36,306 bases of DNA from a virus: the IMG/VR virus record IMGVR_UViG_3300030104_004046, positions 1-36,306 of that record; one strand, given 5' to 3'. Below the pieces are notes generated by a model. That model ran no database searches. It was not told the DNA's origin and worked only from the letters and a program-made list of their open reading frames with translations. Below, piece after piece: positions 1,515 through 36,306 of this stretch. The translations under genes and the position numbers were made by a program. The first letter of the stretch is position 1. The number at the start of each line of letters is the position of its first letter.

Positions 1515-1529
1515 TGATTGAGACAACTT

Positions 1530-3767
1530 ATGGCAATGGATGATATAGAATTTAAAGCACTTGTTGAAGGCCAGCTTAATTCAAGTGTAGGTTATATTGG
1601 CGATGCTATTGTTTCAGAACAAACGGCAGCCTTAGATGCCTACTACGGTCAGCCGTATGGCGATGAACAGCAAGGTCGATCACAGATGATTGATCGTACT
1701 GTTATGGATACCGTTGAACAGGCTATGCCGTCATTGATGCGTATTTTTACAGCCAGTAAAAACCTTGTCACCTTCAACGCACAAATGCCTGATCCTGACT
1801 TATATCCTGATCCGATGCAGTACAATCAGATTGTTCAGCAACGAAGTGAAATGGCCCAGCAGGCAACAGACTATGTAAACCATGTCTTTTTCCACGAAGC
1901 GTCATCTAATGGCGGGTTTGGTGTTTTGTATGATTGGTTTAAAGATGCGCTGATACAAAAAGTAGGCGTATGTCAGATGTGGTGGGATGTCAGAAAGGAA
2001 GTTAAATTTCAGACATTTGAAAAACTGACGGAAGACGAATACGCAGCATTACTTGAGCAATTTCCTGATGCAGAAGTTGTTGAAGAAACAAAAGACGTAG
2101 AAAAGCTGGAAGCCACAATTGAAACACCTGGCGACATTACCGACATTGATATTGAAGAAGAACGTGTATCGTATGACATAAAATTAAAATTCATGCGTGA
2201 GAAAAAAGGCATCCGTGTTGATGTTGTTCCTCCAGAAGAATTTTTAATCAGTCGGCATTCACGCGCTATTGATGATCCTGAAACAACAATGGTCGGGCGC
2301 AGAACATTAAGAACACGTTCTGAACTTATCAGCATGGGATTTGATGCGTCAGTTATCAACAATCTGCCAGCAGGCCATTATTATTCTTTCATGGATGACA
2401 CAGATCGCGGTCGTTTTCCTGATGAAACATTTGGTTTATCTTCTGATGAAACAGAACAAAATGCAAATGTGGAAGTTTTTGATTTGTATGTACGTGCGGA
2501 TTTTGACGAAGATAACATTGCAGAAATACGTCATGTGTTTATGGCAGGCGGTGAAATCCTTGTTAATGATGAAGTTGACCGCATACCGTTTTATGAAGTG
2601 TGTCCTATTCCAATACCGCACCGTTTCTTCGGTCTTGGATTAGCAGACATCACCGTTGACTTACAACGTTTGAAAACAACATTATGGCGACAAGTTCTCG
2701 ATAATTTATATTTTACAAACACACCAGAAGTTGTTGCAGGCCCAGGTGTTCGCACACAGGATTTGGCAAGGCGTGTTATTGGTGGTGTTATTCGTGCTGA
2801 TGACGTTAATCAGGTACGCTGGAACAGCGTTCCGTTTACGGCTGGTCAAAGTTTTCCAATGATGGATTACGTTGACAACCAACGTAAACAAAGAACGGGA
2901 ACAGCAGCCGATGTTGCGGCTATGAATCCTGAAGCCTTAAAACGTATTACAGCCGAAGGTGTACGTGAGATCACAACACAGGCGCAAAGCCGACTTGAAC
3001 TGATTGCCCGTATATTTGCTGAAACAGGTGTAAAGCGTTTGTTCCGCGATATGCTGAAGATGATGGTCGAACACCAGGACTTTAAAAAAGTTATACAGAT
3101 ACGCGGCAACCTTGTACCGATTGATCCGTCACGCTGGCCTTCTGATATGGATGTCACGTGTGAGATTGGATTAGGTCACGGTACAGAAATGGAAAAACGA
3201 GCAGCAATTCAACAAGTTCTACAGTTGCAGGAACGATTAGCACAGGCTGGGCCAGATGCACAAGGAATGGTGATGCCTGATAACATTTACAATTCACTTC
3301 AACGTTTAATCCCATTAACAGGTCTGAGTGATATCACACCGTACTTTAATAAACCGACACCGCCTGATCCAAACCAGCAACCTGAACCGACACAGGCTGA
3401 AATCATTATGCAGCTTGAACAGCAAAAAAGTGAAAATGAATTTCGTTTGAAACAACAGGAGATGGATTTACGTCAGCGCAATAATGTTGCTGAACTCGAA
3501 CTGAAACGTCAGGAAATGGGTTTCAAAATGGAACTGGAACGTCAGATCAATAATGAGAAAATCCGTTTAATGCAGGCTGATGCCGCGATAGCAGATGAAG
3601 ACCGCGCAGTTACCCGTGACATAAAACTTGCTGAATTTGCAATGAAGAATGCGGAAGGCCCGACAACTGAAAGTGATTTGAGCAAACGTCTGACAGAAAT
3701 GGAACAGGCCATTGACGAATTAAAAAAAGAAGTAAAACCGAAGGAAGAAGAAACACAAGATGAATGA
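1530..3767 (+). CDS. Portal protein (P22/SU10-like)
   Basis: The dodecameric portal forms the DNA entry and exit channel at one head vertex and binds TerL during packaging and the neck adaptor afterwards. The 745-aa product opens DDIEFKALVEGQLNSSVGY and continues with DRTVMDTVEQAMPSLMRIF, typical of the large portal family of P22-like phages; length fits that group. The last 120 residues are Gln/Glu-rich heptad helix (QLEQQKSENEFRLKQQEMDL and on), likely the barrel or a coiled coil inside the head. Start set at ATG 1530; TTG 1518 and ATG 1536 are alternatives and no strong ribosome site decides. The stop overlaps the next gene by 8 bases. Confidence 0.88.
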   Translation: MAMDDIEFKALVEGQLNSSVGYIGDAIVSEQTAALDAYYGQPYGDEQQGRSQMIDRTVMDTVEQAMPSLMRIFTASKNLVTFNAQMPDPDLYPDPMQYNQIVQQRSEMAQQATDYVNHVFFHEASSNGGFGVLYDWFKDALIQKVGVCQMWWDVRKEVKFQTFEKLTEDEYAALLEQFPDAEVVEETKDVEKLEATIETPGDITDIDIEEERVSYDIKLKFMREKKGIRVDVVPPEEFLISRHSRAIDDPETTMVGRRTLRTRSELISMGFDASVINNLPAGHYYSFMDDTDRGRFPDETFGLSSDETEQNANVEVFDLYVRADFDEDNIAEIRHVFMAGGEILVNDEVDRIPFYEVCPIPIPHRFFGLGLADITVDLQRLKTTLWRQVLDNLYFTNTPEVVAGPGVRTQDLARRVIGGVIRADDVNQVRWNSVPFTAGQSFPMMDYVDNQRKQRTGTAADVAAMNPEALKRITAEGVREITTQAQSRLELIARIFAETGVKRLFRDMLKMMVEHQDFKKVIQIRGNLVPIDPSRWPSDMDVTCEIGLGHGTEMEKRAAIQQVLQLQERLAQAGPDAQGMVMPDNIYNSLQRLIPLTGLSDITPYFNKPTPPDPNQQPEPTQAEIIMQLEQQKSENEFRLKQQEMDLRQRNNVAELELKRQEMGFKMELERQINNEKIRLMQADAAIADEDRAVTRDIKLAEFAMKNAEGPTTESDLSKRLTEMEQAIDELKKEVKPKEEETQDE

Positions 3768-21257: not shown

Positions 21258-21379
21258 ATGCCTAAACATATTTACATAATTAAATACAGTTTTAGCACTT
21301 AAAAAAGTATCTAAAACGGTAATTACTTTTGATCAATATTACCGTATTCCTTTTCAATTATCAATTCAAAGAAAAGGAG
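21258..21379. promoter_or_regulatory. Regulatory spacer with an inverted ACGGTAAT pair
   Basis: AT-rich spacer before the first excisionase-like gene. ACGGTAAT (21316-21323) and its inverse ATTACCGT (about 21338-21345) face each other across roughly 14 bases, a likely operator or integration-protein site. ACGGT recurs at 21679-21683, 21691-21695, 21818-21822 and 21921-21925. I see no confident -35/-10 pair. Confidence 0.4.
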
Positions 21380-21385
21380 ATGAAC

Positions 21386-21646
21386 TTGGAAACACTTCCA
21401 CAGCTTTTAACCGTAAAAGATTTTAGCAGGATATTTAGCATTAGTGTTCCTATGATCTACAAACTACTTATGAAAGGAGAACTAGAAGCACGTAAGATTG
21501 GTGGAAAGACCGTCATTGATTGTGAAGAAGCCATGCGCTGGAAAAGCAATTTACCACAAAGCAAGCATGAAAGCATTAATGTTAAGAAAAGTCTAAAGCG
21601 AAAAATTGGAAAAAAAATATTGCAAAAAATTCGCTTGATTTTATAA
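21386..21646 (+). CDS. Excisionase-like winged-helix protein (first of two)
   Basis: 86 aa. LPQLLTVKDFSRIFSISVPM and IYKLLMKGELEARKIGGKTV form the helix-turn-helix plus wing of the HTH_17/MerR-like group used by Xis/AlpA proteins; the C-terminus is very basic (KKSLKRKIGKKILQKIRL). AAGGAG at 21374-21379 abuts ATG 21380 but lies 6 bases before TTG 21386, so TTG is the better start. Transcribed toward attP from the other side than the integrase. Likely bends attP DNA and favours excision or controls int. Confidence 0.68.
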   Translation: METLPQLLTVKDFSRIFSISVPMIYKLLMKGELEARKIGGKTVIDCEEAMRWKSNLPQSKHESINVKKSLKRKIGKKILQKIRLIL

Positions 21647-21676: not shown

Positions 21677-21697
21677 AGACGGTTTCTTAGACGGTTT
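21677..21697 (+). repeat. Direct repeats AGACGGTTT, possible arm-type sites
   Basis: AGACGGTTT occurs at 21677-21685 and 21689-21697, 12 bases apart (about one helical turn), with a variant AGACGGTAT at 21919-21927 on the far side of the suspected crossover, inside the end of int. Such spacing and flanking are usual for arm-type integrase or Xis binding sites. Binding is not shown. Confidence 0.45.
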
Positions 21698-21755: not shown

Positions 21756-21779
21756 AAAAAAAATAGCAGAAAACTGCTA
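21756..21779 (-). terminator. Terminator for the leftward integrase operon
   Basis: Read on the minus strand, TAGCAG-TTTT-CTGCTA (21779-21764) is followed by eight T (plus-strand A 21756-21763). It lies 105 bases past the int stop. After integration it might also end the interrupted host gene whose 3' end lies between. Confidence 0.7.
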
Positions 21780-21803
21780 AATAAATGGCAGAAATCTGCT
21801 AAA
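21766..21803. repeat. Tandem 16-base repeat with hairpin form
   Basis: GCAGAAAACTGCTAAA (21766-21781) and GCAGAAATCTGCTAAA (21788-21803) differ by one base and start 22 bases apart, two helical turns. Each is itself a small palindrome. The left copy is part of the minus-strand terminator; the pair may also bind integration proteins. Confidence 0.55.
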
Positions 21804-21806
21804 ATT

Positions 21807-21857
21807 TTAAAGTCCTACGGTAACACCGCCATCAACAGTTATTGTCTGGCCTGCAAT
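21807..21857 (-). other. Probable attP core carrying the 3' end of a host short-chain dehydrogenase gene
   Basis: On the minus strand these bases read IAGQTITVDGGVTVGL and a stop, with a TAG just upstream in frame. That is the conserved C-terminus of SDR enzymes such as FabG-like reductases (consensus (I/V)TGQT-x-VDGG). A bare SDR tail, 26 bases beyond the int stop and with a terminator behind it, is best explained as the phage copy of an attachment site placed in the 3' end of a host SDR gene, so that integration rebuilds an intact enzyme. The exact crossover within or around it cannot be fixed here. Confidence 0.7.
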
Positions 21858-21883: not shown

Positions 21884-23254
21884 CTACAATAACTTAGCGG
21901 TTTTGGTATTTTGATTTAAGACGGTATTCCGTACGCTTTTTTGGTTAGTGTACTCATCAATACCTTTTGACATTTTTTTAGCCAATTCACTTTTATCAAG
22001 ATGACCATAGATCATAGTAGTTTTTATGTCTGCGTGACCTAATTGTTCTTGAACGTGTTTTAATGTTGCGCCTGATGATAATAATGCTGCTGCTGCTGTG
22101 TGGCGCAATTGGTGTGTTGTCCAATTAATATCATGTGGCTGTAAAATTTGTTTTAAACTACGATGTACTGATTCATTAAGAAATTGTTTATAATCACCAT
22201 ATCTATAACCTCCACACGCTGTACCAAATTTTCCTAATTTATAGTTAAAAACATACATATTATTAATATTATTTTCCAGACGTTCTTGCTTTTTCTTTGT
22301 CAGTAATGCAAATAATTGTGATGTTATTGGTATTGTATAACTATGATTTATTGGGCCTTTTGCTTGTTCCATCGTGATTATGTGGTTATCCCAGTCAATA
22401 TCCTGCCATTGCAAACCTACAGCATTCGCAATACGACAACCTGTAAAAAACTGAAAAAGTAATAAATCACACAAATACGGATTTTTTTCTTCAATAATTT
22501 TAAAACTTTTTACTAACAATTCCTTTGATATATGTTTTGGTTTTATATTACTTTCGCGTTTCATCAGGTCGTAAAACCTTAGACCATTTTCAAAATCTAG
22601 TTGTCTGTAAACTGACTGCGTTGAATCAGGGCTTGGTAAAATATCTGGTGCTTTTACATTCCAGTATTTATGACACCTGTTTATAATTGCTTTTAGCATA
22701 GTAAATGCTTTTTGATTATATGAAGTGTAAGTTTCTTTTCTTTTTACAAGTTTGTAAGTAGCAAATTTCCATATATTTTCAATATTACATGGGTATTCTT
22801 CAGATGTTTCTAATTGATAATTATTTAATTTATCAGCAAATTCTAATAAATTATCGTGAGTAAACGTAAATATTTTTAAATTATCTGGAAAATAATATCT
22901 AAACGCAAGAATACTACGTAATCTTTGAATTTTTACTTTTAACTTAACTTTTGCACGCGGATATTTGATTAAGTCTTTTTCAATACCATCCAATTCCTCA
23001 CGCGCGTACCGTTCATAGCATTCGCGTACAGTCGGTGATTCAATTATTTTACGTTCTGCAAGTTTTTCTGCCCGTTTAATTTCTGCTGGCGAACGGTACG
23101 TTCCTTCAAGTATTTGTAAATGCAACCTTGTTGCTTCAGCTTTAGCAATTCTTTTATCAGTTGTTCTTAACGATTGTTGATATTTACGACCTTTGTGTTC
23201 GCACTTGAACTGCCATATAGTCGTTCCTTTCTTTTTCCATGCATGATCTGCCAT
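21884..23254 (-). CDS. int: Tyrosine-recombinase integrase
   Basis: 456 aa. N-terminal arm-binding part [20 protein letters not shown], a helical core-binding region (about 75-205), and a C-terminal catalytic domain with Arg274 ([15 protein letters not shown]), His381 and Arg384 ([15 protein letters not shown]), His407 (LGHADIKTT) and the nucleophile Tyr416 (MIYGHL). It joins attP to attB and, with Xis, reverses it. Repeated GGAAGG before ATG 23254 gives a strong ribosome site lying inside the upstream excisionase-like gene, so their translation is coupled. The gene ends beside attP, the normal arrangement. Confidence 0.95.
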
Positions 23255-31665: not shown

Positions 31666-32631
31666 TTAAGCTACTTGTTTAATATCGTTAGTTTGTAAGT
31701 TGTTTAAAAACTCGACTGACTGCCAAGCTTGATTAAATGCTTCATAGATTAGGTTTTTATCCTTGCGCGCTTGTTTTAACCAACCTTTTAAATATTGCGC
31801 GTGATCTTCGCGCGGTGCATTTGATATACCTAACTGATTACATAAAAACGCGCTGGTACTTTCTGCAATGAGTTCCTCATATGCGTATTCAGTTGAACCA
31901 AAACGCGAACCTTTAAGACGATCTAGCCGCGACTTATGGCCAGTCCAGTGGGCCAGTTCATGCAATAATGTTGAATATTTAGCTTCTGTTTGTGTTGATG
32001 TTTTAGTAGGAATAAAAAGATCATCTTTAGGAATATTAATATAATCATCATTAGGACTATAAAACGCGCCTGGCTTATCAGTTCTTATTGTTGCCATTGT
32101 ATTCTTAACGAATGTATCAACATCATTTAAAACGGCTGGTAATGGCTTTTTAAGGTCTTCTTGTTTGTCTTCTTTTAGTTCCAGGCCCTCGACTTGATCC
32201 GCGTTAAAAACAAAATATTGTTTATAATTACATATAAAAACTTGTTTACCATTCTTATCTAAAACGGGATTTTCATTTTTATCAATTAAGCCAGTTCTTT
32301 TAAAAAAGATTACGGGGACGGCTTTTTGGCCTTTAAGTGAATATTTACAATTTACAATTTTACGGCCTTCACGCTTGCCGCCACCTTTAGTTATGAGCCA
32401 ATGGTTAAATGTTCCCCATTGATTCGACTTATAACCATTAGCGCACGCATATAAAGGTAATAAGAATTGATTAATTCCATTATATTGTTTCCCGCTTGCG
32501 TTCGAAATAGCAACACCGCCACCTAAAGTAATAAAAGGTTTTTCCCAGTGTTCGCTGTTTGCTTTTTCTAATTGGTTTATAATGATATCATTTAATTTAG
32601 TTTTATATGATTCTAATACTTTCTTAGTCAT
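31666..32631 (-). CDS. ardC: ArdC antirestriction protein
   Basis: 321 aa. Residues 1-145 are the N-terminal ssDNA-binding ArdC domain (YKTKLNDIIINQLEKANSEH, GKQYNGINQFLLPLYA, QWGTFNHWLITKGG); the C-terminal half is a zincin-like metallopeptidase with HELAHWTGH at 224-232 (HExxH) and a third ligand in YEELIAESTSAFL. ArdC proteins protect incoming single-stranded DNA from restriction; here it should guard phage DNA after entry. Leader GGAGGTTACTAAATG sets the start. Typical of plasmids, so the group may have come from one. Confidence 0.9.
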   Translation of the reverse strand: MTKKVLESYKTKLNDIIINQLEKANSEHWEKPFITLGGGVAISNASGKQYNGINQFLLPLYACANGYKSNQWGTFNHWLITKGGGKREGRKIVNCKYSLKGQKAVPVIFFKRTGLIDKNENPVLDKNGKQVFICNYKQYFVFNADQVEGLELKEDKQEDLKKPLPAVLNDVDTFVKNTMATIRTDKPGAFYSPNDDYINIPKDDLFIPTKTSTQTEAKYSTLLHELAHWTGHKSRLDRLKGSRFGSTEYAYEELIAESTSAFLCNQLGISNAPREDHAQYLKGWLKQARKDKNLIYEAFNQAWQSVEFLNNLQTNDIKQVA

Positions 32632-35316: not shown

Positions 35317-36306
35317 CCGTACAAGCAAAGGTATCAAAAGACGATCTTGATGCAATTGAGTATCTTCAAAAGCATCCTGAAGAATTTCCGTACATAGTCT
35401 ATGACAAAGGCCCAGACGGTCAGCCTGTTAAACTTGAAGAATGGCAGACAGAATGTTTGAAAGCGCTTCGTAAAAAAAAACGCATATCCATACGTGCTGG
35501 TCACGGAGTTGGTAAATCTGCGTATCTGACGTTTGTTATTCATTGGTTCATGCTGACGCATTATCCGTGTAAAGTACCGTGTACGGCTAATTCACAAAGC
35601 CAGTTGTTTGATGTTTTGTGGTCAGAACTTGGTGTCTGGCACAGGTGCATGAAACCTGAATTTAAACGGCTTTTGATTCATAAAAACGACCGTATTGAAT
35701 TATCTGAAGATCCTGCAAACAACTTTGCGGTGGCACGAACAAGCAGGCGTGAAAATCCTGAAGCGTTACAGGGATTTCACAGTGAGAATGTTTTGTTTGT
35801 TATTGATGAAGCGTCAGGAATTGACGAGAAGATATTTGAAGTTGCGCGTGGTGCGATGTCAACGCCAGGTGCGATAACTGTTATGACGGGTAATCCGACA
35901 CGGGCCAATGGATTTTTTCATAATGCCTTTACGAAAAACCGTACACGTTGGTTTACAAAAACCGTTAGTTGTTATGACAGCACGCGCGTTGATCCTGATT
36001 ATCCGAAGGAAATTGAAGAAGAATACGGCAAAGATTCAAATGTGTGGCGTATTCGTGTAGCGGGTTTACCGCCTAAAGAAGACGCAGATGCGATTATACC
36101 GCGTCATCTCGTGGATTTGTCGGTAGGTCGGGAAGTGGCACAAGTCGGCCCTGAAATATGGGGTGTCGATGTTGCCCGTATGGGAAATGACCGTTCAGCA
36201 CTCGCCAAAAGGCGCGGTAACGTAATGACTGAACCGATTAAATACTGGCGGGAAAAAGATGCAATTCAGTTAAGCGCACTTATTCGTGAAGAATACGATT
36301 GTGCAG
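35313..36306 (+). CDS. terL: Terminase large subunit, N-terminal ATPase part (continues at base 1)
   Basis: Starts at TTG 35313, overlapping the previous stop; no in-frame ATG precedes the ATPase motifs. Walker A RAGHGVGKSA at 61-70, the Walker B strand VLFVIDEAS at 160-168 (Asp165, Glu166), coupling motif VMTGNPT at 190-196, and the first nuclease Asp in WGVDVARMGNDRSA (Asp286). It pumps DNA into the head with ATP and cuts it. The frame runs off the window at LIREEYDCA and continues identically at bases 2-15 of the window, giving one 483-aa protein. Confidence 0.92.
   Translation, partial: MTVQAKVSKDDLDAIEYLQKHPEEFPYIVYDKGPDGQPVKLEEWQTECLKALRKKKRISIRAGHGVGKSAYLTFVIHWFMLTHYPCKVPCTANSQSQLFDVLWSELGVWHRCMKPEFKRLLIHKNDRIELSEDPANNFAVARTSRRENPEALQGFHSENVLFVIDEASGIDEKIFEVARGAMSTPGAITVMTGNPTRANGFFHNAFTKNRTRWFTKTVSCYDSTRVDPDYPKEIEEEYGKDSNVWRIRVAGLPPKEDADAIIPRHLVDLSVGREVAQVGPEIWGVDVARMGNDRSALAKRRGNVMTEPIKYWREKDAIQLSALIREEYDCA

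Follow-up and report, generated by a model that had tools for sequence, protein, structure and literature searches.

The window analysed here, a record of 36,306 nucleotides (IMG/VR IMGVR_UViG_3300030104_004046), is the complete, circularly permuted, podovirus-like genome of a small bacterial virus. Positions 21807-21857 are, in our assessment, very probably the attP core that this temperate phage uses to recombine with a short-chain dehydrogenase (SDR) gene, at its 3′ end, in a relative of the alphaproteobacterium AG-426-B21. This reading is directly supported by the sequence match between the two gene ends, by the uniqueness of that match, by the place of the core beside the integrase gene in a circular genome and by the restoration of the gene in silico. 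From the sequence we also infer where integration and crossover would take place, and we propose candidate arm sites, a candidate excisionase (Xis) and a likely terminator around the core.

An SDR Gene End beside the Integrase Gene

On the minus strand, positions 21857-21807 read ATTGCAGGCCAGACAATAACTGTTGATGGCGGTGTTACCGTAGGACTTTAA and translate to IAGQTITVDGGVTVGL-stop, i.e., the 3′ end of an SDR gene. Only 16 codons and the stop are present; a TAG codon stands directly 5′ of the tail, and translation of the minus strand gave no other SDR-like sequence upstream of it in the window. An SDR C-terminal end with its stop, without the rest of the gene, had been described in an earlier note on this DNA, and it reads as claimed. 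The same note placed the tail 26 bases from the integrase stop with a terminator directly behind it, and this was also borne out: the gap to the integrase stop (21884) is 26 bases, and on the other side two 22-nt repeats form a minus-strand hairpin (21757-21800) followed by a run of eight T residues. The hairpin folds better than shuffled sequences (z = -3.0) and, together with the T-run, likely acts as a terminator behind the restored gene.

A degenerate pattern for the 11 residues GQTITVDGGVT had no match among 2.9 million viral contigs, searches of viral contigs gave no same or related SDR tail in sister phages, and the att region matched nothing in the phage and plasmid collections.

The Tail Matches the SDR Gene of AG-426-B21

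A codon-degenerate pattern for the 13 residues GQTITVDGGVTVG matched once in 84,980 prokaryote species genomes, in AG-426-B21, an uncultured alphaproteobacterium whose genome we take to be that of a single cell from the tropical surface ocean. The match lies at the exact 3′ end of an intact SDR gene of 251 aa ending ITGQTITVDGGVTVGL-stop, which encodes a Rossmann SDR domain (PF13561, E 9e-63) and also matches FabG-like NCBIfam models, each of those listed with a score under its cut-off. Phage and AG-426-B21 share 47/51 nucleotides of the tail, with 41/42 identical across 21807-21848. Counted from the stop codon, identity extends over 12 bases, is interrupted by a mismatch at 21819, continues for 29 unbroken bases and then breaks up beyond 21848; two of the four differences are silent and two fall in one codon (Ala/Thr). 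In a BLAST comparison of 351 bp of the attP region with the AG-426-B21 genome, the SDR end was found with an E value of 6e-15, against 0.12 for the next best match. A nucleotide-level search for a matching bacterial SDR gene had been set beforehand as the refuting test of the proposal, and this is the match that it found. Exact patterns of 29-30 bases had no match in viral contigs or genome contigs; they missed AG-426-B21 because of one silent difference (GGC/GGT), whereas the degenerate coding pattern found it. The 29-bp segment of unbroken attP/attB identity (21820-21848), which is the most likely crossover segment, occurs once in the window and once in genome G001; L009 has the identical segment at positions 25-53 of the first 120 bases.

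We then considered how far protein conservation could account for this identity. Phage and AG-426-B21 share 14/16 identical codons, compared with 6.0 expected from the codon usage of both genomes (P = 4e-5), and by this estimate the conserved protein sequence is by itself insufficient to explain the nucleotide match. In three same-family genomes, the orthologous SDRs (75-78% amino acid identity) end in GVLVGL and show 6-9 differences to the phage over 29 bases, whereas AG-426-B21 and the phage both have GVTVGL and differ at 1/29. In a sample spanning the class, eight other alphaproteobacterial SDRs with the motif deviated from the phage sequence at 5-6 of 26 bases. That a short SDR-like peptide arose in this intergenic region by chance or coding convergence was rejected in practice and has next to no probability: GQTITVDGG is a recurrent SDR ending, but neither the E value and codon statistics nor the distances to other SDRs fit such an origin, the phage and AG-426-B21 share the diagnostic residue (GVTVGL) where the relatives have GVLVGL, and no such tail occurs in the viral contigs.

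Candidate Recombination Elements around the Core

The gene adjoining the SDR tail encodes a tyrosine integrase of 456 aa (21884-23254, minus strand; PF00589, E 6e-28), with the catalytic residues R..H-x-x-R..H..Y present in the translation. It also weakly matches XerC, XerD and integron integrase models, all below cut-offs. Close relatives of the integrase were found neither in viral contigs and phages nor in the order of AG-426-B21 or the class sample.

The window contains four copies of the motif AGACGGTWT, where 0.34 would be expected, and three of them flank the core. Two are direct copies of AGACGGTTT on one side (21677-21697) and one is AGACGGTAT on the other (21919-21927), inside the 3′ end of the integrase gene; from this placement, which is that of integrase arm sites, we consider them candidate arm-type sites. 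On the far side of the core lies a gene for a small DNA-binding protein of the HTH_17/excisionase family (21329-21646, plus strand; PF12728, E 6e-8), a candidate Xis/recombination directionality factor. The protein also matches TIGR01764 'excise' with an E value of 2e-4, below the cut-off of that model, and the gene start as listed is TTG, with an ATG 17 codons further in.

These surroundings bear on a second explanation, in which the tail is a scrap of host DNA picked up through imprecise excision or illegitimate recombination. It would then have lost any function as attP, and the true site would lie elsewhere near the integrase gene. One mismatch falls within the block, identity is lost upstream and no junction was observed, all of which would fit a captured scrap. 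We nevertheless judge it very unlikely. The tail occupies the expected position of an attP, with the integrase gene to one side, the Xis-like gene to the other and candidate arm repeats flanking it. The match runs from the stop codon to a point within the gene, in frame and with almost the same amino acids, and a likely terminator stands next to it. In addition, nothing else in 21650-22000 matches AG-426-B21 significantly. An attP derived from a tRNA gene was also rejected, since the window has no tRNA according to ARAGORN, a program blind to a short 3′ fragment alone.

Integration Would Restore the Target Gene

The attP reading of the SDR tail suggests the following course of integration. The tyrosine integrase would act on the phage core and the end of the SDR gene, with the crossover falling within about 21820-21848. 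In one junction (attL), the 5′ part of the host SDR gene would then run into the tail brought by the phage and on to the phage terminator, leaving the enzyme unchanged; the other would carry the integrase gene, the core with the displaced original tail and then the host downstream gene. When attL was assembled in silico, the restored 251-aa SDR was identical to the native protein, with no amino acid change. Together with the nucleotide match, this supports the earlier note in placing attP at the 3′ end of an SDR gene and in proposing that the restored end comes from the phage.

Among the available genomes, none of them that of a lysogen, neither a prophage nor an occupied site with attL or attR turned up; the one genome with the gene, AG-426-B21, has an empty site and only a weak integrase match. 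Likewise, no prophage was seen beside the SDR gene in the examined stretches of the three same-family genomes. The lack of attL and attR, the imperfect core and the lack of integrase relatives for att comparison count against the attP reading.

The target SDR is a putative accessory gene that lies directly 5′ of two genes on the same strand. A gene of the carboxymuconolactone-decarboxylase (CMD) family follows it in AG-426-B21 after 39 bases, and a second SDR gene comes next, all on one strand (L013, 6559-8768). In the three same-family relatives, the stop of the SDR gene directly adjoins a RutA-like gene in convergent orientation. The surrounding cluster, with RutA-like, xanthine-dehydrogenase-like, ureidoglycolate-lyase-like and aminotransferase genes, suggests a purine/pyrimidine-degradation-like function, i.e., breakdown of nitrogen heterocycles. 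It is conceivable, if rather unlikely, that lysogeny splits this operon, with the phage terminator ending the transcript of the restored SDR and the integrase gene reading toward the two downstream genes. If true, the prophage would rewire one part of a cluster for the catabolism of nitrogen compounds while leaving every protein intact.

The Phage Genome and Its Relatives

The terminase gene is split across the window ends, and positions 1-15 and 36290-36304 share AGAATACGATTGTGC. Contig L004 runs through the end junction with intact terminase sequence. Because the phage genome is circular, the SDR tail is an internal attP and not host flank. The last bases of the window (AG) differ from the L004 read-through, as in a circular record with an overlap of ~15 bases and a slight error at its end.

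Several virion-related proteins (portal, scaffold, capsid and internal virion proteins) have their matches in families of the podovirus type. The portal protein (1518-3767, plus strand; phrog_1216, E 2e-130), which we used for placement of the phage, has relatives in phages with up to 36.5% identity and prophage-like relatives in the family of AG-426-B21. The nearest named relatives checked, the Pelagibacter phage HTVC106P and the Methylophilales phage Venkman, are related in portal and capsid and similar in gene order; both proteins are only 32-38% identical to those of the window, there is no nucleotide match, and the parts compared contain no homologue of its integrase. In L033 (G063:C27), from a genome of the AG-426-B21 family, a phage region carries a portal with 39-42% and a capsid fragment with 51% identity, the portal value exceeding that of any named phage among the matches listed.

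Two further features of the genome were observed. In contig L005, which is near-identical to the window (neighbouring genes 99-100%), the gene between terminase and portal is replaced (515-1393 in the window, 160-1008 in L005): only a stretch of 75 residues aligns, with 41% identity, and L004 has the version of the window (100%). On this comparison, the difference looks like a cassette swap. The minus-strand gene at 31666-32631 combines an ArdC-type N-terminal domain with a zincin-like MPTase-PolyVal metallopeptidase, and its predicted product would be an anti-restriction-like protein in a temperate phage.

The Probable Host Lineage

The relatives of AG-426-B21 are the probable host lineage of the phage, as judged from the shared gene end. 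The earlier note had expected that the gene with matching last codons would identify the host; this holds for the lineage, through the AG-426-B21 SDR, and fails for the exact strain. Since the tail matches at 47/51 positions, with the mismatch at 21819 and the breakup of identity beyond 21848, the true host must be related to AG-426-B21 without demonstrably being that strain. Portal relatives were found in 5/317 genomes of its order, and all five lie inside its family (73 genomes). This clustering, with a P of about 6e-4 by simple counting, was noticed post hoc in a widespread portal family, and it lends weak support to the proposed host family.

The tail could in principle serve another use, for instance as a decoy or as the site where another phage or satellite enters this phage. 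Alternatively, the phage might target another lineage that shares the SDR gene by transfer. SDR genes do move between genomes, and a sister species in the genus of AG-426-B21 (G005) is without the gene. With the phage's own integrase gene only 26 bases away and the portal relatives within the order confined to the AG-426-B21 family, we regard such explanations as extremely improbable and favor an attP that targets the SDR gene of this lineage.

Comparison with Known Integration Systems

Lambdoid phage 21 and e14 integrate in the 3′ end of icd and rebuild the gene. More generally, integrating elements often reconstitute the gene they enter, and tRNA/tmRNA genes and intergenic sites jointly account for only 56.6% of genomic-island attB, many others lying in protein genes (PMC12884075). 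By these figures, the remark in the earlier note that a protein-gene target is unusual was not borne out. Integration at the 3′ end of a protein gene with restoration is an established strategy, and what is new here is the host link. The window resembles such gene-rebuilding phages and islands, a class described in PMC12884075, in its tyrosine integrase, 3′-end identity block and restoring tail. It differs in its target, an SDR gene that belongs to a purine/pyrimidine-degradation-like cluster of an uncultured alphaproteobacterium. No report of an attB in an SDR or fabG gene was noticed in the titles and abstracts of the literature searched, which is not a full survey.

Marine phages have been connected to uncultured hosts in a similar manner: uvDeep-CGR0-AD1-C123 was tied to the SAR11 single-cell genome AAA218-E13 by an att match (PMC4981710), and roseophage CRP-810 is a second such case (PMC11288001). 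As in the window, the host or integration site followed from identity between the phage and a single-cell or isolate genome. In contrast, those two phages use tRNA genes, whereas the site described here lies in a protein gene and has 29 bp of exact identity versus 55 bp. The host-link rule of PMC4981710 requires >30 bp of 100% identity in a tRNA, and an att site in a protein gene would escape such tRNA-only rules. The SDR gene end thus provides a probable host lineage for an uncultured temperate phage from sequence alone, and the integrase/attB pair may be a starting point for genetic tools in bacteria for which none exist.
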